A DNA stretch of 64,000 nt from an uncultured Litoreibacter sp. (GTDB lineage: Bacteria; Pseudomonadota; Alphaproteobacteria; Rhodobacterales; Rhodobacteraceae), in NCBI GenBank assembly GCA_947494645.1, contig CANLVO010000001.1, positions 2,294,001 to 2,358,000 of the forward strand. Direction: 5' to 3'. Position numbers and translations under genes: made by a program. Below are positions 45,992 through 60,520 of this stretch, in pieces. A model generated the notes under the pieces. That model was not told the DNA's origin. It was given only the letters and a program-made list of their open reading frames with translations, and did not search any database. The first letter of the stretch is position 1, and each line of letters opens with the position of its first letter.

Positions 45992-46751
45992 CCGACGAGG
46001 CATCCCCGGGTGCCCCATCCATCATCGACGCGAGTTCGCGGCACAGCTCTGACGAAACCTGACCCATGCGTTCGCGCATGCTTTCCGAAAAAACACGCGT
46101 GGTGGCCGTTGCACCAAGACTGTACGCGATTTGATTTCGGTCTGTCACGACGGGTGCCGCAACTGAACAAACGCCATTCTCAAGTTCCTCCACGCATTCG
46201 GCAAAGCCGTGTTCACGGATAATCTGGAACTCCCGCTCTAGGTCACCCAATTCAGTTTTCGTGTGGGTGGTGTAGGATCTCAAACGGCGCTTCATTGCAT
46301 TGAGCAGCGCATCACTGTTGCTGAAAGCAGCGATAACCTTTGCGCAGGAACACGCATGCAGCGGGCGAGCGCCGATACCGGGATGAAGAAAAGACACGCC
46401 AGTATCTGGCACCTCGGCATGAATGATTTCCACGGTGTCACCCGTCAGATGCGAGATAAAGAAAGTGGCCCCATGTTGTTGAACCGCCTTCTTCAGCAAG
46501 GGCGTCGCCATGCGCAGCACAGTTTGGTCGAAAGGCTCCCTGCCCGCGAGCCGCTTTGTGCGCAGGCCAATGGCGTAGCGTCCACGGTCGCCGGGCTCCA
46601 GCAACCCGGCCTCCACCAGATCGTGCACCTGACGGTAAATGCTGGCTTTTGGGAACTTTGTCGCCTCCGCAATCTCGGCAACGCTCAATCCGGCGTCAGC
46701 GGAAGCGACGGAAACAGTTTCAACAATAGTGAGCAGGCGTTCGAGATACAT
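45972..46751 (-). CDS. IclR-family transcriptional regulator
   Basis: A 259-residue regulator: N-terminal winged helix (SVAEIAEATKFPKASIYRQVHDLVEAGLLEP) and a C-terminal effector domain with IclR features (RPLHACSCAKVIAAF; ENGVCSVAAPVVTDRNQIAYSLGATA). It is divergent from the methanethiol-oxidase-type gene with 65 bases between the starts and convergent with the molybdoenzyme gene. It is the likely regulator of the SBP56-ferredoxin unit and perhaps the molybdoenzyme. Confidence 0.9.
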   Translation of the reverse strand: MYLERLLTIVETVSVASADAGLSVAEIAEATKFPKASIYRQVHDLVEAGLLEPGDRGRYAIGLRTKRLAGREPFDQTVLRMATPLLKKAVQQHGATFFISHLTGDTVEIIHAEVPDTGVSFLHPGIGARPLHACSCAKVIAAFSNSDALLNAMKRRLRSYTTHTKTELGDLEREFQIIREHGFAECVEELENGVCSVAAPVVTDRNQIAYSLGATATTRVFSESMRERMGQVSSELCRELASMMDGAPGDASSVKAGQV

Positions 46752-46757
46752 TTTCTC

Positions 46758-46791
46758 TTCTCATGATACATCTTTTATCGTTAAATGAGAA
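46758..46791. promoter_or_regulatory. Inverted repeat between iclR and the SBP56 gene
   Basis: TTCTCAT (46758-46764) and ATGAGAA (46785-46791) are perfect inverted arms 20 bases apart in a 65-base divergent promoter region. Candidate IclR operator; a 7-base repeat of this kind can also occur by chance. Confidence 0.45.
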
Positions 46792-46816
46792 ATAGATTCC
46801 GGGAGGTCAAGAAAAA

Positions 46817-48172
46817 ATGGCTAAAGCATGTTGTGGACCGGGCTATGCGTCGCCCCAAGAAGCGATGCAAGCTCCGCGCGAGACTTTGCTTTACACGATC
46901 GCAATTTACACAGGCACAGGAATTCAGAAGCCGGACTATTTGGCCACAGTCGATGCTGACCCCGACAGTCCAACCTACAGCCAAGTGATCCACCGATTGG
47001 AAATGCCAGGGATCGGCGATGAGTTACATCATATGGGCTGGAACGCCTGTTCGTCCTGCCATGACGACGATTCGATGGCCCGCAAGTATCTGCTGGTGCC
47101 CGGCGTGCGTTCAAACAATATCCACGTGGTCGACACGGCGACTGATCCGCGTGCGCCACGCCTGCACAAGGTCATTGAGGGGGCAGAGATCAAGGCCAAG
47201 GCAGATTTGTCCGGGCCACACACGGTTCATTGTCTGGGCTCAGAGATCATCATTTCCTTCCTTGGCAACGCGAAGGGCGAAGCCCCCGGTGGCTATCTGC
47301 ATCTTAACAAGGATTTTGAGATTGTCGGCCGCTGGGAAGAGACGATGGGCGATATCCCGTTCAGCTACGACTTCTGGTATCAGCCACGCCACAACATCAT
47401 GGTCAGTTCTGAATGGGCGGCGCCGAATACGTTCATGCCGGGGTTCGATCTCGAGGAGGTCGGACATCTGAAATACGGTCGTCGCCTGCATCTATGGGAC
47501 TTCGAGGCGCGCAAACCGATTGAGACCATGTATCTGGGTGAAGACGGTCTGATCCCACTGGAAGTAAAGTTCCACCATGACCCTGACAGCACGCATGGTT
47601 TCTGCGGAGCCGCTTTGTCGGCAAATGTGATCCATTTCTGGAAATCTGACGCGGGGAAGTGGGAATGGGAGAAGATCATCGATGTCGACAATGAGCCGCA
47701 TCCTGAATGGCCAATCCCCATTCCGGGCGTCATGTCGGCGATCCTTGTGTCGATGGATGACAAGTATCTTTATCTCAATAACTGGTTGCACGGAGATATG
47801 CGCCAATACGACATCTCCGACCCACATCATCCCAAGCTCACGGGACAGGTCTGGATGGGCGGGCTGTTGGGCAAGGCGCCAGTGATCAATGGTGTCGATG
47901 TGGCCGGTGGTCCGCAAATGTATCAGCTGAGCCTTGATGGCAAACGGCTCTACGTAACGACCTCGCTCTTTTCCACATGGGACAATCAGTTCTATCCAGA
48001 GATCCGGGAAAAAGGTGGTGTGATGATCATGATCGACTGCGATCCGGTGAATGGCGGGATGAAGATCAATGAAGACTTCATGGTCGATTTCGGAAAAGAA
48101 CCCAATGGTCCCTCCCGATGTCACGAAACCCGCTATCCGGGCGGCGATTGCACAAGCGATATCTGGCTGTGA
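46817..48172 (+). CDS. Selenium-binding protein/methanethiol oxidase (SBP56/SELENBP1 family)
   Basis: A 451-residue beta-propeller protein extremely similar to human SELENBP1: CCGPGYASPQEAM at the start, the C78-x-x-C81 motif in WNACSSCHDD, SYDFWYQPRHNIM, STEWAAPN-like SSEWAAPNTF, GDMRQYDISDP, and the ending RYPGGDCTSDIWL. This family includes methanethiol oxidase, which makes formaldehyde, hydrogen sulfide and peroxide. Unlike the Hyphomicrobium enzyme it has no signal peptide, and no SCO1 or MauG genes are near. It overlaps the ferredoxin gene by four bases (GTGA). Methanethiol is the best-known substrate, but it is not shown here. Confidence 0.88.
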   Translation: MAKACCGPGYASPQEAMQAPRETLLYTIAIYTGTGIQKPDYLATVDADPDSPTYSQVIHRLEMPGIGDELHHMGWNACSSCHDDDSMARKYLLVPGVRSNNIHVVDTATDPRAPRLHKVIEGAEIKAKADLSGPHTVHCLGSEIIISFLGNAKGEAPGGYLHLNKDFEIVGRWEETMGDIPFSYDFWYQPRHNIMVSSEWAAPNTFMPGFDLEEVGHLKYGRRLHLWDFEARKPIETMYLGEDGLIPLEVKFHHDPDSTHGFCGAALSANVIHFWKSDAGKWEWEKIIDVDNEPHPEWPIPIPGVMSAILVSMDDKYLYLNNWLHGDMRQYDISDPHHPKLTGQVWMGGLLGKAPVINGVDVAGGPQMYQLSLDGKRLYVTTSLFSTWDNQFYPEIREKGGVMIMIDCDPVNGGMKINEDFMVDFGKEPNGPSRCHETRYPGGDCTSDIWL

Positions 48173-48534
48173 CGAGCCATAGCGTTACCATATCCAACCG
48201 CGCGGGTTCGCAATATCAGGTGAACCCGCGCCGGCCACTTCTTGAACAATTGCGCGATCAGGGCGTTGATCTGCCTTATGGCTGCGAATATGGCGGCTGT
48301 ATCACATGTGCGGCCAAGCTGACCCGTGGCGCAGTCGATCAACGCCGTCAGGTTGCGCTCAACAACCGACAAATCAACGACGGCTACGTCATCCTGTGTG
48401 TGGCGAGAGCAACCTCGGATATCACGCTGGAGATTGGCGTTGAGAGCCATGACAAGCTGTATCGCAACCCGTTTCTTGACCCGCTAGCGCCCCATGAACT
48501 CAAGGCCGACATCGCCACCCCGAAGGAGGGTTGA
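48169..48534 (+). CDS. Plant-type 2Fe-2S ferredoxin
   Basis: A 121-residue protein with cysteines C39, C44, C47 and C77 in the pattern C-x4-C-x2-C...C (YGCEYGGCITCAAKL, VILCVA) of plant-type 2Fe-2S ferredoxins and Rieske-oxygenase electron donors. The GTG start overlaps the SBP56 stop, so the two proteins are made together. It may carry electrons for the SBP56 product, the nearby molybdoenzyme or a reductase elsewhere. The C-terminal ~25 residues are an extension. Confidence 0.88.
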   Translation: MTSHSVTISNRAGSQYQVNPRRPLLEQLRDQGVDLPYGCEYGGCITCAAKLTRGAVDQRRQVALNNRQINDGYVILCVARATSDITLEIGVESHDKLYRNPFLDPLAPHELKADIATPKEG

Positions 48535-48537
48535 TCC

Positions 48538-49002
48538 ATGCCAGACGCGAATGTTGATCACATCTACGATTATGATCCGAAATTCCTGGCCGACATCCTG
48601 AAGTCGGTCAAAACGATCGCAATGGTGGGGGCGAGCGCGGACAAAACCAAGTTCAGCTACGGCGTGCTGCGGGTTTTGCATGAAACTGGGTACGACATGA
48701 TCCCCGTCAATCCGAACCCTGCGCTGAACGATATTCGAGGGCTCAAAGTCTATCCTTCGCTTGCCGCTATCGACCGGCCTGTCGACATGGTCGAGGTGTT
48801 TCGCCGCAAGGAAGAGCTTTACAGTATCACCGAAGAGGCCATCGCTATCGGCGCCAAAGTCCTTTGGGGCCAGATCGGCGTCTATGACGATGCCGCCGCG
48901 AAACTGGCCGAAGACGCAGGGTTGAAGGTCGTCATGAACCGGTGCCCCAAGATCGAACTGTTCCGACCTTTCTGGAAGCCCCGATTGGATCTGGCGATCT
49001 GA
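48538..49002 (+). CDS. CoA-binding domain protein (YccU type)
   Basis: A 154-residue Rossmann-like protein. TIAMVGASADKTKFSYGVLRVLHETGYDMIPVNPN and MNRCPKIELFRP match the small stand-alone CoA-binding domain family (YccU). Function of the family is poorly known; it resembles the CoA-binding half of succinyl-CoA synthetase. It lies three bases after the ferredoxin gene and is the third gene of this unit, which converges on the FMO gene. Confidence 0.85.
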   Translation: MPDANVDHIYDYDPKFLADILKSVKTIAMVGASADKTKFSYGVLRVLHETGYDMIPVNPNPALNDIRGLKVYPSLAAIDRPVDMVEVFRRKEELYSITEEAIAIGAKVLWGQIGVYDDAAAKLAEDAGLKVVMNRCPKIELFRPFWKPRLDLAI

Positions 49003-49021: not shown

Positions 49022-50416
49022 TCAGTCCTTTATACTCAATCGGTCTGGGCCGACCCGCCGATAGAGCAGACCAGTGGTCATGCTCGACCGTATTCGCTGG
49101 GCGGTTTCATCGTCAGTACCCGGCAGCGGATCCGTGCCGCAAAGGCGCGCTAAGCGCAATGTCATTTCAGCCTGTGTATGCGGTTGACGATGGTGGCCCT
49201 CAGCCGCGCAAGCGTTCAGGCCAGCGCGCATATCGTTCTCTGACCGGGATATCTCTCCAGACCACGTATAGGCAAGAAATCGAGCCTGTTGCTCCAGCGG
49301 CGTGGGATAGCTTCCCGCTTGGCTCCAAAGCCCAAGGAAGGCAAGGCCGGGTAGATCGGGGTGGAGAGTGAAAGAATCCAGATCGATGGTCGTATTGGTC
49401 AGGTTCAGTGGCTCGGCAACGTCAGGTGCAAGAAAGGGAAGAGCCAGCTTGAAGCCTGTGCCCGCGATGACGCCGTCGATCTCCAGACCGCGCCCATCTG
49501 AGAAGCGTATTTGTCGACCGTCTATCCTTTCGGGCCAAGGCATGGGGGTCACGCGACCTTCCGCCACGAGACTGAGGTAATGCTGCGATCCGGTCGCACC
49601 AGCTTGCGCGAAATCCGGATGTGGCTTTGGCGTACCATAGCGACTGGGGTCGCCAGCATGTTCCATAATCTTGGTTTCCGTGTCGCGCAGGTAATCGCTG
49701 GGCGCGTCCAACGCCAGCCGTCCGCGCTCATAGGTGAACAAGCGGGTTTCTATCGGCATGCCGAGGAACATTTTCGGGTTCACGTAGCGTTGGCGACGTT
49801 GGCAAAGATAGACGGATGCGGCCCCCAGCATCGATAGATCCGAGGCGATCTCCAGCGAGGAGATTGATCCTCCCAAAACAGCGACGCGTTTGCCCTGATA
49901 GGCCAGCGGATCCTTGTAATTGAATGAATGGATCATCCCCAATGGCCCGTCAAACGTGTTCGCGCCGGGGATGTCGGGGATGACCGGATCATTGAAGCGG
50001 CCAGTGGCGATTACGACGTGTTCAGCACTGTCTGAAATCGGTTGGCCATGATGGTCAAGTGTCAGGACCCAACTTGCGCCATCCCGTTCAAGTCCGGTGA
50101 GGCGCGTGTGAAACCGGATCAGATCAAGAAGATCATACTGCCGCGCGAAATCCTCGAAATATTGCCGAACAGTTGCATTATGCGGAAAGAGCGGCGTGCC
50201 ATCCGGGAAGGAGCGATCCGAAAAGCAGGTTACTTCGCGCACTGTGTTGGTGACCATCTGCGGCCAAACACCGCTCAGAGGGTTGGTCCAGGACCATTGA
50301 CCACCAACTTCGCTATGCGCTTCGTATATGCGCGGCTTGAAACCACGTGACATGAGCCAGCGCGCTGCGGCTAATCCCGCGGGGCCAGCCCCGATGATGA
50401 TGACCTCGCGGGTCAA
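49022..50416 (-). CDS. FMO-type flavin-containing monooxygenase
   Basis: A 464-residue protein with an N-terminal FAD motif GAGPAGLAAARWL, the FMO fingerprint F-x-G-x3-H-S-x2-Y in FDGPLGMIHSFNY and an NADPH motif VLGGSISSLEIA. FMOs oxygenate soft heteroatoms such as S or N; microbial relatives include trimethylamine monooxygenase. The TTG start at 50416 overlaps the SDR stop (CATTGA region), with a G-rich stretch upstream. It is the last gene of the sulfatase operon, which suggests an S- or N-containing intermediate. Confidence 0.82.
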   Translation of the reverse strand: MTREVIIIGAGPAGLAAARWLMSRGFKPRIYEAHSEVGGQWSWTNPLSGVWPQMVTNTVREVTCFSDRSFPDGTPLFPHNATVRQYFEDFARQYDLLDLIRFHTRLTGLERDGASWVLTLDHHGQPISDSAEHVVIATGRFNDPVIPDIPGANTFDGPLGMIHSFNYKDPLAYQGKRVAVLGGSISSLEIASDLSMLGAASVYLCQRRQRYVNPKMFLGMPIETRLFTYERGRLALDAPSDYLRDTETKIMEHAGDPSRYGTPKPHPDFAQAGATGSQHYLSLVAEGRVTPMPWPERIDGRQIRFSDGRGLEIDGVIAGTGFKLALPFLAPDVAEPLNLTNTTIDLDSFTLHPDLPGLAFLGLWSQAGSYPTPLEQQARFLAYTWSGEISRSENDMRAGLNACAAEGHHRQPHTQAEMTLRLARLCGTDPLPGTDDETAQRIRSSMTTGLLYRRVGPDRLSIKD

Positions 50417-51168
50417 TGAAAGTAGAGCCCCCCGCAAACATTAATGGCCTGTCCTGTGACAAAACCCGAGAGATCAGAGGACAGGAAGACAGCGGGACCC
50501 ACGATGTCTTCTGGTTCCCCCAACCTGCGCAACGCAGTGGCCCCTGCCCAGTACTCCCGGTCTTCTTGTTTCTGAAGGTTGTTCTGACCCATCTCGGTCA
50601 TGATGATCCCGGGACAGAGCGCATTCACATAGATGCCCTCACGGCCCAGCTCTTGAGCATAGACACGGGTTAGCGTGATAGCGGTTGCCTTGGTCGCGGC
50701 ATAGTGGCCCTGCTGTTCAATGCCCTGCCGACCGGCAAGCGATGCGATGTTGACGATACGCCCCGCGCCCCGTTCTTTCATCTGCGGCAAGACGGCATTT
50801 GTGCACAGCATGATGCCTTTCGCATTCACATCGAAGTGCAGATCCCAGGTTTTTTCGTCCAACTCGTCAAGTCGACTGAGCGCAAGTACTCCTGCATTGT
50901 TCACAAGAACGTCGATCTGGCCCATGGCTGCGGTTGCTTCTTCCATGACCGCTTCGACACGGGCCTTGTTGGTCACGTCTATTGGAATGCAAACTGCCCG
51001 TTGGCCTGTGGCCTCAACTTTGTTTGCCACAACAGTCATGGCGTCAGCCTCGCGCTCGAGGTCCGTCAGTACGATATCGGCCCCCGCCGCGGCCATACCT
51101 TCGGCCAGAGCAGCGCCGATGCCTCGTGACGCGCCGGTGATCATCACGGTTTTTCCTTTGAGGATCAT
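50413..51168 (-). CDS. SDR-family dehydrogenase
   Basis: A 251-residue short-chain dehydrogenase: cofactor motif TGASRGIG near residue 10, NNAG, active-site S-Y-K (NIASLAG, HYAATKA) and ending VCGGLYFH. The acidic D in VLTDLE after the glycine motif points to NAD rather than NADP. AAGGAG lies upstream of the ATG, which overlaps the PfkB stop (ATGA). It would oxidise or reduce a hydroxyl of the imported compound before or after phosphorylation (inference). Confidence 0.88.
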   Translation of the reverse strand: MILKGKTVMITGASRGIGAALAEGMAAAGADIVLTDLEREADAMTVVANKVEATGQRAVCIPIDVTNKARVEAVMEEATAAMGQIDVLVNNAGVLALSRLDELDEKTWDLHFDVNAKGIMLCTNAVLPQMKERGAGRIVNIASLAGRQGIEQQGHYAATKATAITLTRVYAQELGREGIYVNALCPGIIMTEMGQNNLQKQEDREYWAGATALRRLGEPEDIVGPAVFLSSDLSGFVTGQAINVCGGLYFH

Positions 51169-52121
51169 GGGTTCAACTCCTTTAGGGGCCAAGTTTCCAT
51201 CGCAGCATGTGTCTGTTCAAAATCCTTAAGAATACCCTGAGAGCCCAGTCCTTGCGCCACATGCGCCGCGACGGTGTTGGCAAAGCGAGCGGTCTTGGCA
51301 ATGTCCCACCCTTTGACGATCCCGATGATTACTCCGGCGGTAAAACTGTCTCCGCAGCCGGTCGTGTCGACCACGTCAATTTGATGGGCGGGCAGTTGGA
51401 ATGCCTCGCCTTCAGCCGGGTCCACCCAGACGCCGTCGGCTTCCAGCGTGATCAGCGCGTTCTTGACGCCGCGCGTCTTAAACCAAGCTGCGACCTCAGC
51501 AGGTGTGCCACCACCGGCCATTGCGCGCGCCTCTTCGATAGAGGGCACGAAGTAGTCAATGTAGGGAAGTAGCGGCTCGACCAGCGAAATGGTCGCATCA
51601 TTAGCAAGGATCAAGTCAAACACCGTTGTGCGACCCAGAGCTTTGGCGCGTTTCAACAGGGCCAGAGACGGCGCACCGTCAAACGCCGCCAGCAGCCCTG
51701 TGCCGCCAAGATGAACAATTCGCGCATTACAGGCGGCCTCGATACCCGCCGCATCAAGAGTGAACGTGTTGGAGGTTCCCGGAACAAAGAACGCGGCACG
51801 TGCGCCATCAGGCGCAATCGGCAGCATCGACATTGGCGATTGGACTTTGGCGTTGCGGCTAACCGAACCGGTATTGACCCCAGCTTTTTCCATTGCCGAA
51901 ACCAGCCAATCACCCATCGGGTCACAGCCAAGCTCAGTCGTAACTTGCACATTCAATCCAAGCGTCGCGCAGTCAAGCGCGGTTGCGCCAGCTGTGCCTG
52001 CAACTGTCATCGTCATTTGGTCGACAAAAGTCGCGCCACCGCGGGGAGGCATCGCATCGGCATGGGCGCAAAGTGTGTCGAGAACGACGAAGCCAACAGC
52101 GCTGAGGTCAAACTGTGTCAT
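51165..52121 (-). CDS. PfkB-family carbohydrate kinase
   Basis: A 318-residue kinase with PfkB signature 2, DTTGCGDSFTAGVIIG, carrying the catalytic aspartate, and an N-terminal lid region typical of ribokinases. It phosphorylates a sugar or sugar-like alcohol. It shares four-base ATGA overlaps with the aldolase upstream and the SDR downstream. With a class II aldolase beside it, kinase then aldolase is a natural two-step sequence giving DHAP and an aldehyde. Confidence 0.85.
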   Translation of the reverse strand: MTQFDLSAVGFVVLDTLCAHADAMPPRGGATFVDQMTMTVAGTAGATALDCATLGLNVQVTTELGCDPMGDWLVSAMEKAGVNTGSVSRNAKVQSPMSMLPIAPDGARAAFFVPGTSNTFTLDAAGIEAACNARIVHLGGTGLLAAFDGAPSLALLKRAKALGRTTVFDLILANDATISLVEPLLPYIDYFVPSIEEARAMAGGGTPAEVAAWFKTRGVKNALITLEADGVWVDPAEGEAFQLPAHQIDVVDTTGCGDSFTAGVIIGIVKGWDIAKTARFANTVAAHVAQGLGSQGILKDFEQTHAAMETWPLKELNP

Positions 52122-52771
52122 GCATCGACCTCCGTCAGCCCGTAACCGGCGAACTTGTCCAGCACGTCTTGTACCTGCTGGTCCGTCAGGAGGGGCGGGT
52201 CTCCCAACAACAAGGCACCATGATATTGCCTCGCCAGTGTTTCCAACTCTTCAGCGCGCCAGAAGGCTTGCTCGATGCTCGTTCCCGTTGCGATGGATCC
52301 GTGATGATCCAGAAGACAGGCGTGACGGTCCTCGAGTGCTTTAACCGCGTGATCTGACAGCTCCTGGCTGCCGTAGATTGCATAAGGCGCAACGCGGATA
52401 TTCGTCCCGCCAAAGATCGCGATCAGGTAGTGGATTGCCGGGATCTCGCGTCCGTGAATGGCAAGTATCGTGCAATAGGTTGGGTGTGCGTGAACAATGG
52501 CGTTCACGTCAGGCCGGGCTGCCAGAATATCCCGATGAAACCGCCATTCCGAGGACGGCGCGATCGGCCCTTCAGCGCGACCGTCCATATGGACATACGC
52601 TATTTTATCGGGTGTGAGATCGGCGTAAGGCGTGGAGGTCGGTGATATTAGCATCCCATCGCCGTGCCTGATCGAGACGTTGCCAGATGTTCCTTGATTA
52701 AGCCCGGAACTATTCAGTTTCAGGCAGAAATCTATGATCGCTTTGCGTTTTGTGCGTTCGTTTTCGTGCAT
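52118..52771 (-). CDS. Class II aldolase (FucA/AraD family)
   Basis: A 217-residue aldolase. GTSGNVSIR near residue 27 is the phosphate-binding region, SSEWRFH supplies the catalytic glutamate (E in SEW), HAHPTYCT the zinc histidines, and LLDHHGSIA the third histidine region. L-fuculose-1-phosphate aldolase is the prototype, giving DHAP plus lactaldehyde; related enzymes cleave 5-methylthioribulose-1-phosphate. The start follows the sulfatase stop codon directly (TAA-ATG). The substrate cannot be assigned from sequence. Confidence 0.85.
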   Translation of the reverse strand: MHENERTKRKAIIDFCLKLNSSGLNQGTSGNVSIRHGDGMLISPTSTPYADLTPDKIAYVHMDGRAEGPIAPSSEWRFHRDILAARPDVNAIVHAHPTYCTILAIHGREIPAIHYLIAIFGGTNIRVAPYAIYGSQELSDHAVKALEDRHACLLDHHGSIATGTSIEQAFWRAEELETLARQYHGALLLGDPPLLTDQQVQDVLDKFAGYGLTEVDA

Positions 52772-54310
52772 TTACTCAGCTGCCACTGCGGAGGACGCCA
52801 ATCCTAAACGGATGAGTTGTTCAGGGGGGCATCCTTCTTCTTCCAAGCGCTGTTTCAGCAACGCCAGCATACGGTCCCGCTGCACTGGGTTACTGTCCCA
52901 GAGGTTTTGGGTTTGCTCCGGGTCCAGAGCGCGGTGGAACAGAAAATTCTCATAGGTTCGCGGGTCTATTTTGATCGGCATTTTCCACATGGGGTATGGC
53001 ACGCTAGGATCGAATTGCGCTTGATCCACAGGTTGCGCGGGAGCGCTGCCGACCCGGCCATCGACAGGGTTATCAACCAAGAGCGGCCGAGCTATCATGG
53101 TGGAATAGCTGAAGAGATCATGCCCTTTGATAGGGGATTTAAATAGCGTCCACTCCCCATCTGTGATGCAAACCCCCTGACCAAACGTACCATAAGTGAT
53201 GTCAGCATGCGGTTTGGCCCCGCCTGTAATCAAAGGCAACAAACTGGCGGAATGACGTGTGTCTTCGGGAGGCGTTCCGCCGGATGCTTCGATAATCGTT
53301 GAGAACAGATCGACGGTCTGCGTCAGAGCCGATACACGAGCGCCTGCATCACGATTGTCAGGATGCCACACGATCATCGGGATGTTGGCGTGGCTGTCAT
53401 AGTGTGGGTATTGCTTGCCAAATACGCCACGCTCACCCAGATCGTGACCGTGATCGGTGGTAAACACGATCATGGTATCATCCCACAGATTGAGGTCGCC
53501 GATCGTATCCAAGAACTGGCCCAACCACTTATCCACCATGGTCGTCTTGCCGTAATATTGCGCCTTCAGATAGGCGAGCTCTTCCGGCGTTGTCTGTGCC
53601 ATGAAGGCATCAAGGTCGGCATAGATCTGATAAGGTGGCCAAATGTTGTAATCGCTCGCATCGCCTTTCAAATCGCCGGCGTACATTGTGTCATAGGGGG
53701 CCGGAACGTGGAACGGCTCATGCACGTCAAAGCTCTCGACTTGCAGGAAAAACGGGCCTCGTTCGGCGTTCTTTCGTAGCCAGTTTGATGCAGCGGTGAA
53801 GGTTTTTGCAGGGAAGTAGTCTTCCTCCCCGCCAAACCCCCTCACGTTCTCCCAGTATTGGCGCATGTGATAGGGTGAACGGAACTCGCTCATCTTATCC
53901 ACCCACTTCGGCACTTCACCATCATGTGGCAGTTGGTGGTAATCCGTCTCATGGCCGCGGATCATTTCCAGCGTCATGAAGCCCTGCATGTAACCATTCG
54001 AGGTCTCTTCCCAATAGTGGTAGTGATCGGTCACCATGCCGGTGTTGAAGCCTTGCTTTTGCACCTCTCGCGGTAGCTTGGGATCAAAGACTTCCAAGGG
54101 GCCCCACGGGCGCCACATGAACTCTTTTCGACCAGCGAAAATCTCGCGCCGGGCTGGCATGCAAGGCAGGCTCGAAATGAAATGGTTCTCGAAAATCAAT
54201 GACTTCGCGGCCAACGCCTCAATGTTTGGCGTCTCGCACACTGTATCAGGATTGTAGGTACGCAGGGCCTCTTTGTTGAGACTGTCCACCAGGATCAAAA
54301 TAATATTCAT
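52772..54310 (-). CDS. Type I sulfatase, cytoplasmic
   Basis: A 512-residue formylglycine sulfatase: the signature C50-M-P52-A-R54 (SSLPCMPARREIFAGR) marks C50 as the residue converted to formylglycine, D9 (LILVDS) and the TTDHGHDLGERG region provide calcium ligands. There is no signal peptide, so substrate must be imported. It is the first gene of the five-gene leftward operon and divergent from the TauABC-like importer. An anaerobic or aerobic formylglycine-generating enzyme is not nearby. Sulfate esters are the expected substrates. Confidence 0.9.
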   Translation of the reverse strand: MNIILILVDSLNKEALRTYNPDTVCETPNIEALAAKSLIFENHFISSLPCMPARREIFAGRKEFMWRPWGPLEVFDPKLPREVQKQGFNTGMVTDHYHYWEETSNGYMQGFMTLEMIRGHETDYHQLPHDGEVPKWVDKMSEFRSPYHMRQYWENVRGFGGEEDYFPAKTFTAASNWLRKNAERGPFFLQVESFDVHEPFHVPAPYDTMYAGDLKGDASDYNIWPPYQIYADLDAFMAQTTPEELAYLKAQYYGKTTMVDKWLGQFLDTIGDLNLWDDTMIVFTTDHGHDLGERGVFGKQYPHYDSHANIPMIVWHPDNRDAGARVSALTQTVDLFSTIIEASGGTPPEDTRHSASLLPLITGGAKPHADITYGTFGQGVCITDGEWTLFKSPIKGHDLFSYSTMIARPLLVDNPVDGRVGSAPAQPVDQAQFDPSVPYPMWKMPIKIDPRTYENFLFHRALDPEQTQNLWDSNPVQRDRMLALLKQRLEEEGCPPEQLIRLGLASSAVAAE

Positions 54311-54364
54311 TGCGTCCTCCCTGCAGGCCTCGGGTTAATCGAGTGTCATGCCACTTCCTTTATT

Positions 54365-54443
54365 TGATTATAATCAGAAATCTGTCAATCAGATCGATGA
54401 TAATATCGTATTTGTTGACGTTTGCTGATTCTGATCATAATCA
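54365..54443. promoter_or_regulatory. Two palindromic operators between the sulfatase and TauA-like genes
   Basis: TGATTATAATCA (54365-54376) is a perfect 12-base palindrome, and TGATCATAATCA (54432-54443) is a copy with one change. The second overlaps a possible -10 (TAATCA, with TTGACG at 54415-54420 and a 17-base spacer) for the rightward importer operon. The probable ligand is the GntR-UTRA protein at 57097-57927. Confidence 0.7.
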
Positions 54444-54507
54444 TAAGTAAGAAATTCGATCCGATAGCCGCAGACAGGCTCAGGGTTTTTTTTGGGAGGA
54501 AAGATCG

Positions 54508-55542
54508 ATGGCAAATTCAAAGACCAGCTATACCAGCCGGCGCGCGGTTCTGCGGGGGGGCATCGCAGCAGGCGCAGCAATAGCAGCACCCTCATTTTTC
54601 GTTGGCAAAGCGCATGCCGCGAATGAAAAACTTAAGGTTGGAATTATTCCGGCCTATTCGTTCGGGCTGTACTGGCTTATTCAGGATCAAGGTTTTGCGC
54701 CTGGCGTCGAGATGGAATTCAGCGTGTTCCCGTCCGGGCCACCTGCGATTGAAGCAATGGTTGGCGGCTCAGTCGATACCATCACTGTGGGTTCCGTACC
54801 CCCCTTGGCGGCGATGTACCGCAAGGTCGCAAACTTCCGGGAAATCTCGATCTGTGGCGACGCCTCAGGCCTTTTCCAGATTGTCGGCAAGCCGGGCATG
54901 AGCTCTCTGGCCGATCTGGAAGGCAAGAAAATCGCCGTGACATCTGGCTCCAATTTCGACTTCTTCCTTGGTGTGGCTCTCGCGAATGAAGGGCTTAGCG
55001 ATATGCCACTTACGCGGGTCAATATGGAGCCAATTGACGGGCAATCTGCATTCATTGCCGGAGCAGTTGATGCAACCGTGCCTTTGGCGACCTCACGCAA
55101 ACTGATCTACGATGCCCTGCCGGACGCGTCTCTCCTTGCAGATGGGTCTGCAATGCCAATCGACGCACGCCCGTCCATCATGGACGTCTTCATGTCAACG
55201 CAAGAGAGTGTTGATGCAAAAGAAGACGCATATGTAGAAATCGTACGGGCTTTCCACGAGAAAGCAGTGCCGATGCTGCGCAATGACAATGCAGCAGTGG
55301 TCGAGCGGATGATCGAGTGGCAGTCGGGAATGGGCCGTGCGGGTGTGACCGCCGCTGATGTTGAGCCGTTGTTGAACGGATACTTCTACTTCGATTCAGC
55401 CGAGATCAAAGACGTTTACAACCGTGGACTTCTGAAAAGCGCCTTGCAGGTGCAGTCAGATTTCCTCGTTGCTAACGAGCGCATAGGCGGAGTTCCTGAT
55501 CTGGATGCACTGGTGTCGGATCAAATTGTCGCTAAAATCTAG
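54508..55542 (+). CDS. Tat-exported substrate-binding protein, TauA/SsuA (NMT1) type
   Basis: A 344-residue protein with a Tat signal (SRRAVLRGG, then a hydrophobic stretch ending AHA). The mature part fits the NMT1/THI5-like group that includes TauA and SsuA: KVGIIPAYSFGLYWLIQDQG, SVDTITVGSVPPLAAM, LEGKKIAVTSGSNFDFFL. This family commonly binds sulfonates, taurine and sulfate esters. GGGAGGA precedes the ATG. First gene of the importer operon, opposite the sulfatase. Confidence 0.85.
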   Translation: MANSKTSYTSRRAVLRGGIAAGAAIAAPSFFVGKAHAANEKLKVGIIPAYSFGLYWLIQDQGFAPGVEMEFSVFPSGPPAIEAMVGGSVDTITVGSVPPLAAMYRKVANFREISICGDASGLFQIVGKPGMSSLADLEGKKIAVTSGSNFDFFLGVALANEGLSDMPLTRVNMEPIDGQSAFIAGAVDATVPLATSRKLIYDALPDASLLADGSAMPIDARPSIMDVFMSTQESVDAKEDAYVEIVRAFHEKAVPMLRNDNAAVVERMIEWQSGMGRAGVTAADVEPLLNGYFYFDSAEIKDVYNRGLLKSALQVQSDFLVANERIGGVPDLDALVSDQIVAKI

Positions 55543-55548
55543 TTTGTG

Positions 55549-56325
55549 ATGAACAGTCTCAAACGCATTTTGTCAGGGCGCCTTGTTTTGGGCGCCCTTT
55601 CAATCGCGCTGGTCCTGGGAGCGTATCAATTCGCCACCGTGCAGCCGGATAACAACCCGGCGCTTTTGCCTCCGATTCCTGATATTATCGCCAGCTTCTT
55701 TACCAATGTTGAGGCTGGGTCGCTCCAGCAGGCGCTTTGGGCCAGCCTATACCGGATTTTTCTTGGCTTCTTCATTGGGACGTCATGCGCGTTGATCATT
55801 GGCTGTCTGGTTGGGTGGTATAAGACCATTGAATTCCTGATCGACCCGCTGATCGAAGCGATCCGCCCGATCCCGCCTCTGGCTTATATTCCAATCATCA
55901 TCATCTGGTTCGGGATTGAGGAATTCAGCCGTGTCCTCTTGATATCCATCGCATGCTTTATGGTGTGTGTGGTCAATGTGATCGCCGGGATGAAAAATGT
56001 GCCGCAGGTTTACGTCGACGCTGCATCGACCATGGGGGCGTCGCGGTTTCAAGTCTTCCGTACAATAGCGGTTCCGGCAGCAACACCATTTATCATCACG
56101 GGCTACCGCATCGCACTTGCTGCAGCCTGGACGACGTTGGTGGCCGCCGAACTGATCGCTGCGCCGAGCGGCCTTGGATTTATGTTGCAGGAAGGCCGCC
56201 GCTATTTCCTTACGGATCAAGTGATGATGATTATTGTCATAATTGGCGCATGTGCATTCATCATGGACCGCACATTCCGCGCAATTCAGAAACGATTGAT
56301 GGTTTGGTCGGAGGCGCGTGATTGA
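55549..56325 (+). CDS. ABC importer permease, TauC/SsuC type
   Basis: A 258-residue inner-membrane protein with about six hydrophobic segments and the family stretch IEAIRPIPPLAYIPIIIIWFGIEEFSRVLLI split at residues ~105-135. The EAA loop is VDAASTMGASRFQVFRTIAVPAATPFI. It follows the binding-protein gene after six bases (a GTG three bases earlier is an alternative start) and overlaps the ATPase gene by one base (TGATG). Confidence 0.88.
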   Translation: MNSLKRILSGRLVLGALSIALVLGAYQFATVQPDNNPALLPPIPDIIASFFTNVEAGSLQQALWASLYRIFLGFFIGTSCALIIGCLVGWYKTIEFLIDPLIEAIRPIPPLAYIPIIIIWFGIEEFSRVLLISIACFMVCVVNVIAGMKNVPQVYVDAASTMGASRFQVFRTIAVPAATPFIITGYRIALAAAWTTLVAAELIAAPSGLGFMLQEGRRYFLTDQVMMIIVIIGACAFIMDRTFRAIQKRLMVWSEARD

Positions 56326-57080
56326 TGTCTGAGATACGAGTCAATGACCTGACCCACACATTTGGCAAAGGAACGCCAGAGGCGCTCACTGTTCTCGAAG
56401 GGATCAATCTGGAGTTCTCTTCAGGTAGCTTCACATCAATCGTCGGCACCTCTGGATGCGGTAAGTCCACATTGCTCAAGATGATGGCGGGGCTTTTCGA
56501 TCCATCCGATGGCGAGATGACTTTGGACGGGCAGGTCATCAAAGGCACCGATCGCAAGCGTGGCATGGTTTTCCAACAGGACGCCGTCTTCCCGTGGATG
56601 ACGGTTGCCAAGAATATCTCTTATGGCCCGCGCATTCATGGTGAACCGAAAGCGGCTCAAATGGCCGCCGAAACCAAATGGGTTGAGGCGGTCGGGCTGA
56701 AAGGATTCGAAGACAGATGGCCACGCGAGCTGTCGGGCGGCATGCGGAAACGGGTCGATATCGGGCGCGTCTATGCCAATGACCCTGACGTGCTTCTGAT
56801 GGATGAGCCTTTCGGTGCCCTCGACGCTCAAACGAAAGAGCGCCTCCAGTCCGATCTGCTGACCACGTGGAAAGAAACCCAGAAAACTGTCATCTTCGTT
56901 ACGCATGATCTTGAGGAGGCGATTTTTCTCTCTGATCAGGTTATCGTCATGTCAGCGCGTCCTGGGCGGATCAGGCATATCGAAGACATAAGCTTGCCCC
57001 GACCGCGAAATGATGAAATGCGCCTGACACCGGAGTTTCTGGACATTAAACGAAAGCTCTGGAAGATGCTGGATCATTAG
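56325..57080 (+). CDS. ABC importer ATPase, TauB/SsuB type
   Basis: A 251-residue ATPase with Walker A GTSGCGKST, Q-loop MVFQQDAVFPWMTVAKN, signature LSGGMRKRVDIGRVY and Walker B LLMDEPFGALDAQTKE, the FGALDAQT form being typical of the nitrate/sulfonate/taurine group. The start overlaps the permease stop. Confidence 0.9.
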   Translation: MSEIRVNDLTHTFGKGTPEALTVLEGINLEFSSGSFTSIVGTSGCGKSTLLKMMAGLFDPSDGEMTLDGQVIKGTDRKRGMVFQQDAVFPWMTVAKNISYGPRIHGEPKAAQMAAETKWVEAVGLKGFEDRWPRELSGGMRKRVDIGRVYANDPDVLLMDEPFGALDAQTKERLQSDLLTTWKETQKTVIFVTHDLEEAIFLSDQVIVMSARPGRIRHIEDISLPRPRNDEMRLTPEFLDIKRKLWKMLDH

Positions 57081-57096
57081 AGTTGAGTGCGCATTT

Positions 57097-57927
57097 GTGA
57101 ATGAGATCATCCCAAAGCGGAAACAAGCCGGTCGTCCCAGATTTCAGGAAGCCGAAGGCGCGGCCTACGATAACTTTCGCAAGGAATGCCAGCATGTCTT
57201 CTTATCACGTGATGCGCCATTGCCGCTGTGGGAACAGCTGTATCAACATTTGGAGAATCTAATTCTTAGCGGAAAGCTAGCCGTCGATAGCCGTATCCCG
57301 CCCGAACCATTGTTGTGTGATCTCTTCCATGTTTCCAAAGCCGTCGTTAGGCATGCGATCTCGGCGCTTGCTGCAAAGGGATTGGTTGTAAAAATCCCGC
57401 GCAAGGGCATGTTTGTGTGTGAACGGCCACGGGAAAGTGGGTTTGTAACGTCGAATATCTCGCTGTTCGACGACATGATCGCACGTGGCGCATCAATCGA
57501 CACCCGCACATTTGAATTCGTCAAAGACAAAGCTGATCTGTCAGAACAGCAGGGTCTACTGCTTGATGACCGCGACGAAGTTATCCGCATCACACGTGTG
57601 TTTTGGGTTGATGATATGCCGCTCACCCACTCTGTCATGAGCTTCCCTTCTGCAAAGTTGCCCGGTTTCGAGCGTAGTGACTTCGCCAAAAGCTCCATCC
57701 TGAAGGCCATTCACACACGCTTTGGGCTAAAGGTTGTAAGAGCAAATCGTTGGCTTGATGCGAAACTTCCAAGTGACCTTATCTGTGATCGAATGGGCCT
57801 AAGCACACCACGGCCACTCATCCACATCGAGTCTGTCGGCTACGATCAAAAAGCCGAACGCCTTGAGTACTACCAGGCGTATTACAACACAGAAGCTGCG
57901 CGTATTCGGTTGTCCGTGTCTGACTAA
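57097..57927 (+). CDS. GntR-family regulator with UTRA domain (HutC subfamily)
   Basis: A 276-residue regulator. After ~35 variable residues comes the winged helix (PLWEQLYQHLENLILSGKL, FHVSKAVVRHAISALAAKGLV) and a UTRA-type effector domain (VIRITRVFWVDDMPLTHSVMSFP, ending YYQAYYNTEAARIRLSV). It starts with GTG 16 bases after the ATPase, probably as the fourth gene of the importer operon. Its operators are probably the TGATTATAATCA palindromes upstream. The natural effector would report the imported compound. Confidence 0.87.
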   Translation: MNEIIPKRKQAGRPRFQEAEGAAYDNFRKECQHVFLSRDAPLPLWEQLYQHLENLILSGKLAVDSRIPPEPLLCDLFHVSKAVVRHAISALAAKGLVVKIPRKGMFVCERPRESGFVTSNISLFDDMIARGASIDTRTFEFVKDKADLSEQQGLLLDDRDEVIRITRVFWVDDMPLTHSVMSFPSAKLPGFERSDFAKSSILKAIHTRFGLKVVRANRWLDAKLPSDLICDRMGLSTPRPLIHIESVGYDQKAERLEYYQAYYNTEAARIRLSVSD

Positions 57928-58178: not shown

Positions 58179-58604
58179 TCATGCGGAAAATGTCGGCACT
58201 GCGTCGATCCCAGCTTGCGCGACCTCCTGATCTTGCGCAGGTGAGCCAGAACTGACGCCAATGGCGCCGACCACTTCGCCGTTGCAATGCACAGGCAGCC
58301 CGCCGCCGACCACGACCATGCGACCTCCAAGCGTTGCCTGCAGACCATGAGCTGGCATGCCGGGTTGGCTGACTTCGCCTAAAGCATGGGTGCTTTTCTT
58401 GACGCCCGCCGCCGCAAAGGCTTTGTCGATGGCAAGCCCAATACTTGTGATCTTGCCGCCGTTCATCCGCTCGAACGCAATCAGGTTGCCGCTTTCATCC
58501 GTGACGGCAATACACATCGGGACTCCGATCTCAGTTGCCTTGGCGCGTGCGCCTGCAATGAGCGCGTGAGCCTCATCGATGTCCAGCCGAACTATCGTCA
58601 GCAT
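58179..58604 (-). CDS. HbpS/GlcG-like small protein (heme-degrading/PduO-C domain)
   Basis: A 141-residue protein of the GlcG/HbpS family: AHALIAGARAKATEIGVPMCIAVTDESGNLIAFERMNG at the start, then IGLAIDKAFAAAG and the C-terminal IGAIGVSSGSPAQDQEVAQAGID. Function in the family is varied and uncertain. It lies 18 bases after dctM and is probably the last gene of the TRAP operon. The 250 bases between it and the GntR gene (57928-58178) hold no convincing gene. Confidence 0.82.
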   Translation of the reverse strand: MLTIVRLDIDEAHALIAGARAKATEIGVPMCIAVTDESGNLIAFERMNGGKITSIGLAIDKAFAAAGVKKSTHALGEVSQPGMPAHGLQATLGGRMVVVGGGLPVHCNGEVVGAIGVSSGSPAQDQEVAQAGIDAVPTFSA

Positions 58605-58622
58605 AGCGTCATCCTTCTAGTG

Positions 58623-59909
58623 CTAAGTCCCGATGATCAGATTTGGCAGCGTCAATGAGATCGCAGGGACGAAGGTTATCAACATTAGGGCCGCGAATAT
58701 GGCCAGATAGAAGGGCCAGATCGTTCTGACTGCTTTTTCCATCGGTAATTTGCCCACAGCACACCCCACGAACAGACAGGTTCCTACAGGCGGTGTACAC
58801 AGGCCAAGCCCAAGGTTGACCAAGAGGATCATGCCGAACTGAAGAGGATCAATGCCCAGCATGTTCATCACGGGCAGGAAGATTGGAGTGCAGATCAGGA
58901 TCAGCGCCGCCATGTCCATGATCATGCCCAGCAGCAACAGCACCGCATTGATCATCAGCAGGATAAGGATCGGGTTTTCGGTAATGCCCAGCAGGAATTC
59001 GACGGTCTTGGTGGGCACCCGGTTGAAGGTCAGCATGTAGGCGAACGCGCCTGCGCAGGCGATCAAGATCATCACCATCGAGGTGGTCCGCACCGATGAG
59101 ATCACGGCGGTCTTAAACGCGTCCCATGACAGGCTGCGATAGACGACCAGCGTCACGATGAAGGCATACATTGCGCCAAACGCGCCGGACTCGGTCACTG
59201 TGAAGACGCCCGAGAGCACGCCGCCAACGATGATCACGGCCGTGAGCAAACCTGGGATGGACCCAACGAAGGCAATGGCAAGTGCGGTCCAGCCCGGAAA
59301 CTGCTCGGCCTGGTAGCCGCGTTTGACCGCAACGACATAGGCGGCGATCGCAAGGCAGCAGCACATCAGAATGCCGGGCACGACGCCCGCGAGGAACAGC
59401 TTGGAGATCGACACCGCCCCCCCTGTTGCGAGCGCGAAGATGATCATGTTGTGACTGGGCGGGATGATGATCCCTGCAATCGAGGAGGTCACGGTCACGT
59501 TGACCGCATAATCGGCATCATAGCCCTTGTCTTTCATCACCGGGATCAGGATCGAGCCCAAAGCCGAGATATCGGCAATGGCCGAGCCGGAAATGCCGCC
59601 AAACAGCATAGAAGAAAAGACGTTGACGATGCCCAGACCGCCACGCACGGCGCCAACGGCGGCTTGCGCGAACCGGACCAGCCGGATGGCAATACCGCCA
59701 TGGAACATTAGTTCCCCCGCAAAGATGAAAAACGGGATCGCCATGAGCGAGAAGACATTGATGCCCGAAACGATGCGCTGAAAGCCAACGAAGAGCGGCA
59801 GCCCTTCGAACCAGAAGGCAGACAAGGCCGCAATGCCGAGCGCGTAGGCCACTGGTGTGCCGATGAAAACGCAAAGGGCAAAGACGCCCAGAAGAACCAT
59901 GAGACCCAT
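58623..59909 (-). CDS. dctM: TRAP transporter large membrane subunit DctM
   Basis: A 428-residue polytopic protein with DctM hallmarks: SMAIPFFIFAGELMFHGGIAIRLVRFAQA near residue 60, IIPPSHNMIIFALATGG and the C-terminal LLLVNLGLGLCTPPVGTCLFVGCAVG-like stretch (split at residues 370-395). The ATG at 59909 follows the dctQ stop by two bases; a longer open frame upstream is dctQ in another frame. It uses a sodium or proton gradient for uptake. Confidence 0.92.
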   Translation of the reverse strand: MGLMVLLGVFALCVFIGTPVAYALGIAALSAFWFEGLPLFVGFQRIVSGINVFSLMAIPFFIFAGELMFHGGIAIRLVRFAQAAVGAVRGGLGIVNVFSSMLFGGISGSAIADISALGSILIPVMKDKGYDADYAVNVTVTSSIAGIIIPPSHNMIIFALATGGAVSISKLFLAGVVPGILMCCCLAIAAYVVAVKRGYQAEQFPGWTALAIAFVGSIPGLLTAVIIVGGVLSGVFTVTESGAFGAMYAFIVTLVVYRSLSWDAFKTAVISSVRTTSMVMILIACAGAFAYMLTFNRVPTKTVEFLLGITENPILILLMINAVLLLLGMIMDMAALILICTPIFLPVMNMLGIDPLQFGMILLVNLGLGLCTPPVGTCLFVGCAVGKLPMEKAVRTIWPFYLAIFAALMLITFVPAISLTLPNLIIGT

Positions 59910-59911
59910 GT

Positions 59912-60445
59912 TTAGCCTTGATCTATGTTGTCTTGGCGCTCGTCCCGACCCAAAGCGAGGCGGATCAGATGGCCGGTTGAAAAGAGGAACAGCAACGCCC
60001 CGCTGATTGTCAGAGGCAAGGAGCGCAACCCTTCTGACCACTGGATGAGCGGGATCAGAGTGTTCCATTTGAATTGGGTCAGCTCGATGCCGTACCAGAA
60101 CATCATGCCACCAAACCCTGCCATCAGGATGTCAGAGATCACGACGAAAACGGTCCGTACCGAAGAAGGGACCAGATTGCGGAAGACCACGACAGAGAGG
60201 TGTGTGTGATTGTGGACGCCAGCTGCGGCACCCAGAAAGGCGATGACCATGACCAGCAGCAAAGAGACCTGCTCTACCCACGTTGGTGTGTCGTTCAGGA
60301 CGTAGCGGCCAAACACCAACCAGGCAAAAATCGCGGTCATTGCGACAATCGCAACGCCTGCAATTAAGACGCAAGTGCGGGCCAGCAGGTCAAGGACCCG
60401 GTCCATGGCCCTTAGCAGCGCAGGCGACTTGTTAGGCTCAGCCAT
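59912..60445 (-). CDS. dctQ: TRAP transporter small membrane subunit DctQ
   Basis: A 177-residue protein with four hydrophobic segments and the DctQ features FAWLVFGRYVLNDTPTWVEQVSLLLVM (split at residues 40-70) and GAAAGVHNHTHLSV. It is between the binding protein and dctM. A hairpin of 10 bp precedes it at 60465-60497. Confidence 0.88.
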   Translation of the reverse strand: MAEPNKSPALLRAMDRVLDLLARTCVLIAGVAIVAMTAIFAWLVFGRYVLNDTPTWVEQVSLLLVMVIAFLGAAAGVHNHTHLSVVVFRNLVPSSVRTVFVVISDILMAGFGGMMFWYGIELTQFKWNTLIPLIQWSEGLRSLPLTISGALLFLFSTGHLIRLALGRDERQDNIDQG

Positions 60446-60464
60446 AGGTGTTTCCCTGAAACAA

Positions 60465-60497
60465 AGCGCCCGGCATCCATAGGTGGAGCCGGGCGCT
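60465..60497 (-). other. Intercistronic hairpin between dctP and dctQ
   Basis: AGCGCCCGGC and GCCGGGCGCT form a perfect 10-bp stem with a 13-base loop, followed on the minus strand by TTGTTTC. A partial terminator or 3' stabiliser that lets the binding protein be made in excess, as in many transport operons. Confidence 0.75.
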
Positions 60498-60520
60498 CAT
60501 TGGATAGATCTCTTAGAAGC

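Follow-up and report, generated by a model that had tools for sequence, protein, structure and literature searches.

A putative import and catabolic unit for a small sulfate ester in an uncultured Litoreibacter sp.

Gene content of two divergent operons

A 64,000-nucleotide stretch of contig CANLVO010000001.1 from an uncultured Litoreibacter sp. (assembly GCA_947494645.1), referred to here as the window, holds two divergent operons, one for a TauABC-like importer with a regulator and the other for a sulfatase, an aldolase, a sugar kinase and two oxidoreductases. Judged from its sequence, the unit appears to serve the uptake of a small molecule that is sulfated and resembles a sugar alcohol, and the gene set is probably co-regulated. 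Open reading frames and translations were derived from the letters of the window, and families were assigned using Pfam, with each match lying above its curated cut-off. The minus-strand operon consists, in order, of genes for a cytoplasmic formylglycine-type S1 sulfatase (52772-54310; PF00884, 128 bits), a class II, FucA-type zinc aldolase (52118-52771; PF00596, Aldolase_II, 178 bits), a PfkB/ribokinase-family sugar kinase (51165-52121; PF00294, 130 bits), a short-chain dehydrogenase/reductase (SDR; 50413-51192; PF13561, 212 bits) and, as the last gene, a class B flavin monooxygenase-like protein (FMO; 49022-50437; PF00743, 129 bits). Diverging from it on the plus strand are genes for a TauA/SsuA-like periplasmic binding protein (54508-55542; PF09084, NMT1), a TauC-like permease (55546-56325; PF00528, BPD_transp_1), a TauB-like ATPase (56322-57080; PF00005, ABC_tran) and a GntR-UTRA regulator (57097-57927; PF00392 and PF07702). 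All nine open reading frames were present with Pfam matches in the families that the original prediction had given them. By coordinates the sulfatase and aldolase genes abut, and there are 4-base overlaps between the aldolase and PfkB genes and between those for TauC and TauB; the PfkB and SDR genes overlap likewise if the SDR starts at its in-frame internal ATG at 51168, which overlaps the PfkB stop.

The sulfatase combines the two marks of the formylglycine S1 superfamily, the PF00884 domain and a Cys-x-Pro-x-Arg motif, which inspection of the translation found as CMPAR with Cys50. We take CMPAR to be the sulfatase motif, and likewise YxxxK to be that of the SDR and GCGD that of the PfkB family. 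Asp9, Cys50, Arg54, Asp286, His287 and Lys299 were invariant in 19 aligned sequences, window included. No signal peptide was seen by eye, because the N-terminus, MNIILILVDS, starts directly at the apparent first beta strand.

The aldolase scored about 220 bits against solved L-fuculose-phosphate aldolases and 231 bits against the fucA equivalog model TIGR01086, below its cut-off of 400.25. In an alignment to 7x78, its Glu75, His94, His96, His157 and Tyr115 occupy the catalytic places of FucA, for which we assume the reference numbering Glu73, His92, His94, His155 and Tyr113. The best solved match of the PfkB kinase, which has the GCGD motif in its translation, was YdjH (3h49, 79 bits), and sulfofructose kinase (7ag6) matched at 63 bits. 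The SDR, which has YxxxK in its translation, likely converts an alcohol to a ketone. In a comparison of the nine proteins with NCBIfam, for which the best 25 models each were considered for the FMO, SDR, aldolase and TauB, only one score among the models listed lay above a cut-off: the SDR reached 224.3 bits (cut-off 215, among 25 of 237 models) with "glucose 1-dehydrogenase", the name of a broad subfamily model. The FMO had its best NCBIfam matches in ArsO (96.7 of 425 bits) and trimethylamine monooxygenase (88.9 of 675 bits) and reached the cut-off of neither.

TauA carries a twin-arginine-like leader, SRRAVLR by eye, and is 59-90% identical to 17 aligned relatives. It scored below the cut-offs of the SsuA-family model TIGR01728 (86.6 of 163.5) and of the taurine model TIGR01729 (52.5 of 304.25), and the TauC-like permease reached 187.6 of 342 bits against the TauC model. 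The GntR-UTRA gene adjoins that for TauB in seven related loci (L019, L020, L021, L022, L023, L025 and L059), and its product is the probable regulator of the import and catabolic unit. The divergent promoter region (54311-54507, 197 bases) contains two candidate operators, TTTGATTATAATCAGA at 54363-54378, which includes a copy of the palindrome core at 54366-54378, and TCTGATCATAATC at 54430-54442. The palindrome itself, TCTGATNATAATC, has exact copies in the window at these two places (54366-54378 and 54430-54442) and none elsewhere in it. A pair of copies stands at the same place in L019, 63 bases apart as against 64 in the window, and L059 has one copy at the same place and another before a ligase gene. 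Elsewhere among 139 loci the exact palindrome was found in L028 and L029, each with a single copy that lies within a gene; three further matching loci are copies of the window.

Conservation and alternative enzyme sets

When one genome per species was scanned, 79 loci with a related sulfatase were obtained, drawn from the best 80 of 126 confirmed stretches, and these were compared with the window genes using tblastn. They comprised 42 near loci (sulfatase about 57% identical or more), 16 intermediate loci, among them two assigned by hand (L058, and L074, whose contig ends inside the gene), and 21 loci with identities below 40%. The thresholds were at least 55% for TauA, at least 60% for the FucA-type aldolase and PfkB, and at least 49% for the SDR. 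Within their stretches, the near loci contained TauA in 19 cases, TauB and TauC in 16 each, the FucA-type aldolase in 9, aldolase together with PfkB in 8, the SDR in 9 and the FMO in 5, whereas the 37 loci with a more distant sulfatase contained none of these genes at the same thresholds. TauA was present in all 8 loci with aldolase and PfkB. A lack of conservation of the operon had been named in advance as the outcome that would count against the original prediction, and the opposite was found. Five near loci of the 42 (L019, L020, L023, L025 and L059) have all five enzymes in the window order, three of them with inserted genes, and the remaining near loci keep fewer of the five. SDR identities were 60-84% in 6 importer loci and 49-57% beside the sulfatase in L028, L029, L032 and L073; the FMO orthologues, 57-74% identical, follow the SDR in 5 loci.

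Whole genomes were searched for 34 of the 42 near loci and the window's own genome (n = 35; L028, L043, L047, L049, L050, L052, L060 and L073 not included). TauA was found in 26 of them. In 24 of the 26 its coordinates fell within the sulfatase locus or a short way outside it, provided that L044, with a contig of 143 kb, is counted as a circle like the plasmid pMaD5 of its relative. The two exceptions were G212, in which TauA lies 32 kb from the sulfatase on a contig of 44 kb, apparently a circle that was opened because a near relative, G647, has the cluster whole, and G228, with TauA on another contig than the sulfatase. For seven of the 9 genomes without TauA (those of L024, L026, L030, L045, L051, L053 and L055), weak tblastn matches placed another ABC ATPase or a TRAP component near the sulfatase; the remaining two are those of L029 and L032.

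The linkage was also approached from TauA, with a limit of E ≤ 1e-90, at most 5 candidates scored per genome and the window's own genome in each sample. Positive genomes numbered 4 of 390 in the order and 1 of 385 in the class. The four of the order were the window's own, G902 (L048), G644 (L036) and G647, only the last being new to the sulfatase-based set, and in 4 of 4 the sulfatase lay on the same contig as TauA. In a sample of 198 genomes of the family, TauA occurred in 2 and a sulfatase of at least 60% identity in 3, and both TauA genomes were among those three. Our data indicate that import and catabolism form one unit for a probably sulfated compound, as predicted: the linkage holds in 19 of 42 near loci against 0 of 37 distant ones and in all four genomes found through TauA. 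TauA was found in none of the 5 other genomes listed of the window's genus, and the unit is therefore accessory and probably acquired.

The enzymes beside the sulfatase were of more than one kind. A first set, with the window's aldolase and PfkB, was found in 8 loci (L019, L020, L022, L023, L025, L027, L040 and L059), of which 6 also have the SDR and 5 the FMO. A second set, found in 19 loci, consists of an FGGY kinase, a zinc-dependent threonine-dehydrogenase-like enzyme and a class II aldolase that is closest to L-ribulose-5-phosphate 4-epimerase models (families tested on L038). Most second-set loci also have a SorC-type regulator, a BisC-type molybdoenzyme (18 of 19), a split transketolase and a formylglycine-generating enzyme (FGE), and TauA lies within the locus in 7 of 19; L040 has parts of both sets. 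Similarity among the importers cuts across the two sets, because the window TauA is 85-87% identical to those of L040, L048 and L057, whose clusters carry a zinc-dependent alcohol dehydrogenase, an FGGY kinase, a BisC-type enzyme and an aldolase only 30-31% identical to that of the window, and 61-77% identical to those of the first-set loci L019, L022, L023, L025, L027 and L059 (90% for L020). Second-type clusters are found on the plasmids pMaD5 of Marinovum algicola DG 898 and p420573 of Paracoccus seriniphilus. G644:C15 (44,392 bases) and G647:C4 (44,315 bases), both with the second set, appear to be one circular plasmid that was opened differently. The ideas that the split transketolase and Dak genes serve apiose or tetritols were dropped, as a literature search gave nothing relevant and a supposed RpiB was identified by NCBIfam as DhaL.

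A third setting was observed in L024, L028, L029, L032 and L073, in which a sulfatase of 64-71% identity is accompanied by an SftI-like isomerase (118 of 700 bits; families tested on L029), DhaK, a LacD-type, tagatose-bisphosphate-aldolase-like aldolase and a nucleoside-hydrolase-like protein beside the sulfatase, with a psicose-epimerase-like protein in all but L028. Three of these loci are labelled SAR116, one Paracoccaceae and one Flavobacteriales, the last nearly identical to L029. This setting is perhaps a separate sulfated-sugar pathway. On a Rhizobium plasmid, a sulfatase of 50% identity occurs with a sugar ABC importer, and no aldolase is annotated in the stretch. Because of these two contexts, the sulfatase family may serve sugar-like sulfates more widely.

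Proposed pathway and competing interpretations

Gene content, motifs, conserved linkage, the shared candidate operator and the second set beside the same importer can be read from the DNA itself, and from these we infer every reaction of the pathway, its order, regiochemistry and substrate. The locus is rather probably a catabolic unit complete in itself, with a small sulfate ester of some polyol-like compound as its substrate. TauABC would import the intact ester, and GntR-UTRA would control both divergent operons via the paired palindromes. The cytoplasmic sulfatase would release sulfate, after which the SDR would oxidise a secondary alcohol to a 2-ketose and the PfkB kinase would phosphorylate C1 of the ketose, a position suggested by the aldolase type and by the solved kinase matches, YdjH and sulfofructose kinase, both of which we take to be C1-specific. 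The FucA-type zinc aldolase would then cleave the ketose 1-phosphate to dihydroxyacetone phosphate (DHAP) and an aldehyde, and the FMO would oxygenate a centre such as sulfur or nitrogen in either the substrate or the aldehyde. The product would be taken further by an aldehyde dehydrogenase in some relatives, which have its gene near the operon end (L023, L025 and L027), and in some by an acetoacetyl-CoA-synthetase-like ligase and a thiolase (L019, L025, L040 and L059; the ligase is over the cut-off in L019). The ligase and thiolase, together with a DUF35-type protein in L019 and an esterase-like protein in L059, hint at an acid or acyl part for which the proposed route does not account.

The core of this route, from import and desulfation through oxidation and phosphorylation to aldol cleavage, is the best reading because a nearly identical importer stands in relatives beside another dehydrogenase, kinase and aldolase of the same types. 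In a tblastn comparison FGE lay inside the stretch in 17 of 42 near loci, which also speaks for the reading. What the two sets share in function (an alcohol dehydrogenase, a sugar kinase and a class II aldolase, and perhaps an oxygen-transfer type of redox enzyme) would outline the pathway; the argument is made from gene content, assumes a shared substrate and leaves the order of steps unfixed. Sulfate esters account for a large share of marine dissolved organic sulfur, and this share is poorly resolved. A unit of importer, sulfatase and aldolase that is conserved among roseobacters and their relatives, partly on plasmids, would provide a marker gene for the use of a sulfated metabolite and a route that can be tested, and the two exchangeable sets constrain that metabolite to an alcohol that becomes a phosphorylatable, aldol-cleavable ketose.

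Several observations weigh against this interpretation. None of the nine proteins reached an equivalog cut-off among the NCBIfam models listed, so every enzyme activity is assigned at the family level only. The maturation of Cys50 in the window's own genome is unexplained, because FGE (PF03781) and the anaerobic sulfatase-maturating enzyme (TIGR03942) had no matches in that genome, which is 99.4% complete; FGE-domain proteins occur in 30 of the 35 sulfatase genomes, the others without being those of L024, L029, L031 and L032. The importer is absent from the stretch in 23 of the 42 near loci, in several of which it lies just beyond, and was not found in 9 of the 35 sulfatase genomes. Within their stretches, L022 and L040 lack the SDR and FMO, L027 lacks the FMO and L021 lacks all four downstream enzymes. 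As for the operator, the palindrome with one mismatch allowed had 4 matches in the window, one of them outside the divergent promoter, against 0.19 expected in shuffles, a chance estimate that flatters the motif because it was chosen after being seen in the window and in L019. The loci L020, L023 and L025 have no exact copy, and other palindromes occupy the divergent region in L023, L031, L034, L040, L048 and L057.

The alternative that survives best is an order like that of sulfoglycolysis, in which oxidation, phosphorylation and cleavage precede desulfation, so that the substrate of the sulfatase is a short aldehyde or acid that still carries the sulfate. The third setting resembles sulfoglycolysis in its SftI-like isomerase, DhaK and LacD-type aldolase, the PfkB kinase matches sulfofructose kinase, and action on a shared small product would explain how one sulfatase serves different upstream sugars. 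However, the operon begins with the sulfatase gene, which lies next to the importer, as that for the enzyme of a first step would, and its Rhizobium relative follows a sugar importer in a stretch with no annotated aldolase. We consider this order unlikely.

A wider reading sees one mobile, largely marine pathway for a heteroatom-bearing polyol sulfate ester, with two interchangeable enzyme sets in which the FMO and the molybdoenzyme are alternative oxygen-transfer steps. This seems quite doubtful to us. The heteroatom might belong to a methylthio or sulfonium group or to a tertiary amine, or even, as mere speculation, to the dimethylarsinoyl group that arsenosugar sulfates carry. As to the last, no arsenic-named gene was found among the proteins run through Pfam and NCBIfam, except for the weak ArsO score of the FMO.

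It is decidedly unlikely that the sulfatase-family enzyme is a phosphonate monoester or phosphodiester hydrolase and that the unit takes up a phosphorus compound. Phosphonate monoester hydrolases are found among the solved relatives near the sulfatase, which weighs against a sulfate ester, and the second and third best models of the regulator were PhnF (72 bits) and PhnR (71 bits), below cut-off; the FGE near many relatives fits either kind of hydrolase alike. In contrast, most solved proteins related to the binding protein bear the names of sulfonate or taurine binders, and in Pfam and among the NCBIfam models listed no match to a known phosphonate-degrading enzyme was seen for any of the nine genes. 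Also improbable is the view that the class II aldolase is an epimerase or decarboxylase (of the L-ribulose-5-phosphate 4-epimerase or 3-oxo-tetronate 4-phosphate decarboxylase type) and forms no DHAP. Its superfamily is catalytically mixed and the second-set aldolase has L-ribulose-5-phosphate 4-epimerases as its best models, but the window aldolase keeps the FucA residues and scored 243 bits against the FucA subfamily model (cut-off 264) compared with 109 bits against the decarboxylase model. Finally, the occurrence of the sulfatase without this importer in 9 of 35 genomes, and an L021 stretch with importer and sulfatase only, would suit two unrelated units, a transporter and a sugar operon, that are neighbours by chance, which the linkage counts from both searches and the shared candidate operators make highly improbable.

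The original prediction knew of no described pathway with this gene set, and none was found in a literature search in which most subscription papers were beyond reach. The sulfoglycolytic Embden-Meyerhof-Parnas pathway (YihS/YihV/YihT/YihU) acts on a C-sulfonate, is not known to involve a sulfatase and uses a LacD/DeoC-type aldolase. It resembles the window unit in that a PfkB-family kinase is followed by an aldolase, giving there DHAP and a sulfur-bearing C3 piece, but the window aldolase belongs to PF00596 and a sulfatase is present, so the unit is not of this kind; a LacD-type aldolase was seen in L024 and SAR116-like relatives. With the L-fucose pathway (FucI-FucK-FucA) it shares a FucA-type aldolase, whereas it has no isomerase among its nine genes, a kinase of another superfamily, and a sulfatase and TauABC in addition. 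Its importer has the same subunit families as the TauABC and SsuABC sulfonate importers, but no desulfonating TauD or SsuD is among the nine genes, and TauA falls below the taurine and SsuA cut-offs.

In the DHAP shunt, or 5-deoxyribose salvage (MtnK-MtnA-Ald2, DrdA), a kinase and a fuculose-phosphate-type class II aldolase lead to DHAP and an aldehyde, and a methylthio group can be carried, as described in PMC6079011 and PMC10986504. The window unit shares the kinase and class II aldolase and, by prediction, the DHAP and aldehyde products; the shunt uses a methylthioribose-type kinase (or a phosphorylase) and an aldose-1-phosphate isomerase, compared with PfkB, a dehydrogenase, a sulfatase and TauABC here. 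No MtnA isomerase is among the nine genes, to which the search for it was confined. Because of this and the different kinase, the unit falls outside the shunt in its MtnK-MtnA-Ald2 definition. In its working it would resemble that shunt, or some other pathway with a sugar-phosphate aldolase, with a sulfate ester as the input.

Three Cys-type sulfatases are encoded in the window's own genome, with the motifs CGPSR (L001), CAPGR (L002) and CMPAR (L003), and as a guess from its motif the second may be a choline sulfatase. To our knowledge, choline use needs no kinase or aldolase. The window unit is not one for choline-sulfate use, because its sulfatase scored only 113.8 bits against the choline sulfatase model TIGR03417, far below the cut-off of 433.45. 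Choline sulfatase is a formylglycine sulfatase of the same superfamily that acts on an alkyl sulfate, according to PMC5870055.

Neighbouring methanethiol oxidase module and molybdoenzyme

Next to the FMO gene lies a separate module (45972-49002) of an IclR regulator (minus strand), a methanethiol oxidase (MTO)-like SBP56 protein, a ferredoxin-like protein and a CoA-binding-like protein (all plus strand, the last two named by eye). The original prediction had seen in the methanethiol oxidase a hint that the aldehyde could carry a methylthio group, and this link did not hold up. The window MTO scored 160 bits against the MtoX model NF052453, far from its cut-off of 650, and the MTO-ferredoxin-CoA-binding module, often with IclR, is conserved and self-standing in many genomes of the family. 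An MTO of at least 66% identity, complete or in pieces, was found in 27 of 198 family genomes, 25 of which have no sulfatase of at least 60%. MTO was nevertheless somewhat enriched in the sulfatase genomes (12 of 35 versus 27 of 198, Fisher p 0.006), in a comparison that is uncorrected for kinship, counts split and broken copies, includes the own genome and G014/G200 in both samples and draws on samples of different make-up. The sulfatase is present beside MTO in the window and in L031 and in none of 20 other MTO loci (stretches of 7 to 19 kb). For this reason methanethiol was rejected as the core of the pathway, although the enrichment speaks against that rejection.

Upstream of this module is a BisC-type molybdoenzyme (43640-45991, plus strand), a neighbour outside the operon and a possible accessory, which at 925 bits did not reach the cut-off of the S/N-oxide reductase subfamily model TIGR00509 (1017.55). 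The S-oxide reductase had been put forward as a second clue to the substrate, and this clue stood in part: an enzyme of this type belongs to the second set and adjoins the importer in L031. Relatives of the window molybdoenzyme at 44-47% identity occur in 18 of 19 second-set loci, and one of 56% directly follows TauB in L031. That the FMO and the molybdoenzyme are strict substitutes could not be established, as molybdoenzyme relatives (E ≤ 1e-100) form a common family, found in 30 of 35 sulfatase genomes, and are absent from two (L025 and L059) of the five genomes in which an FMO relative occurs.

Related molybdoenzymes were also seen in other surroundings. On G201:C41 (L109), a contig separate from the sulfatase locus of the L022 genome to which it belongs, a second TauA relative (60%) lies within 1 kb of a molybdoenzyme of 44-45% identity. 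In L105 (2811-11771), a BisC-type enzyme follows an apparent ribose-type ABC importer (by eye) and precedes an aldolase of FucA-like type (51%); the stretch also has a GntR regulator with 43% similarity to that of the window, and no sulfatase. In L104 (7-6893), a molybdoenzyme relative of 58-60% stands beside an aldehyde dehydrogenase (tblastn) and a ProW-like permease, a GcvT-like protein and an iron-type alcohol dehydrogenase (by eye). At the other end of the window unit, beyond the GntR-UTRA gene, genes named by eye comprise a minus-strand GlcG-like open reading frame with a TRAP transporter (DctM, DctQ and DctP; 58179-61495) and a second GntR-type gene at 61818.

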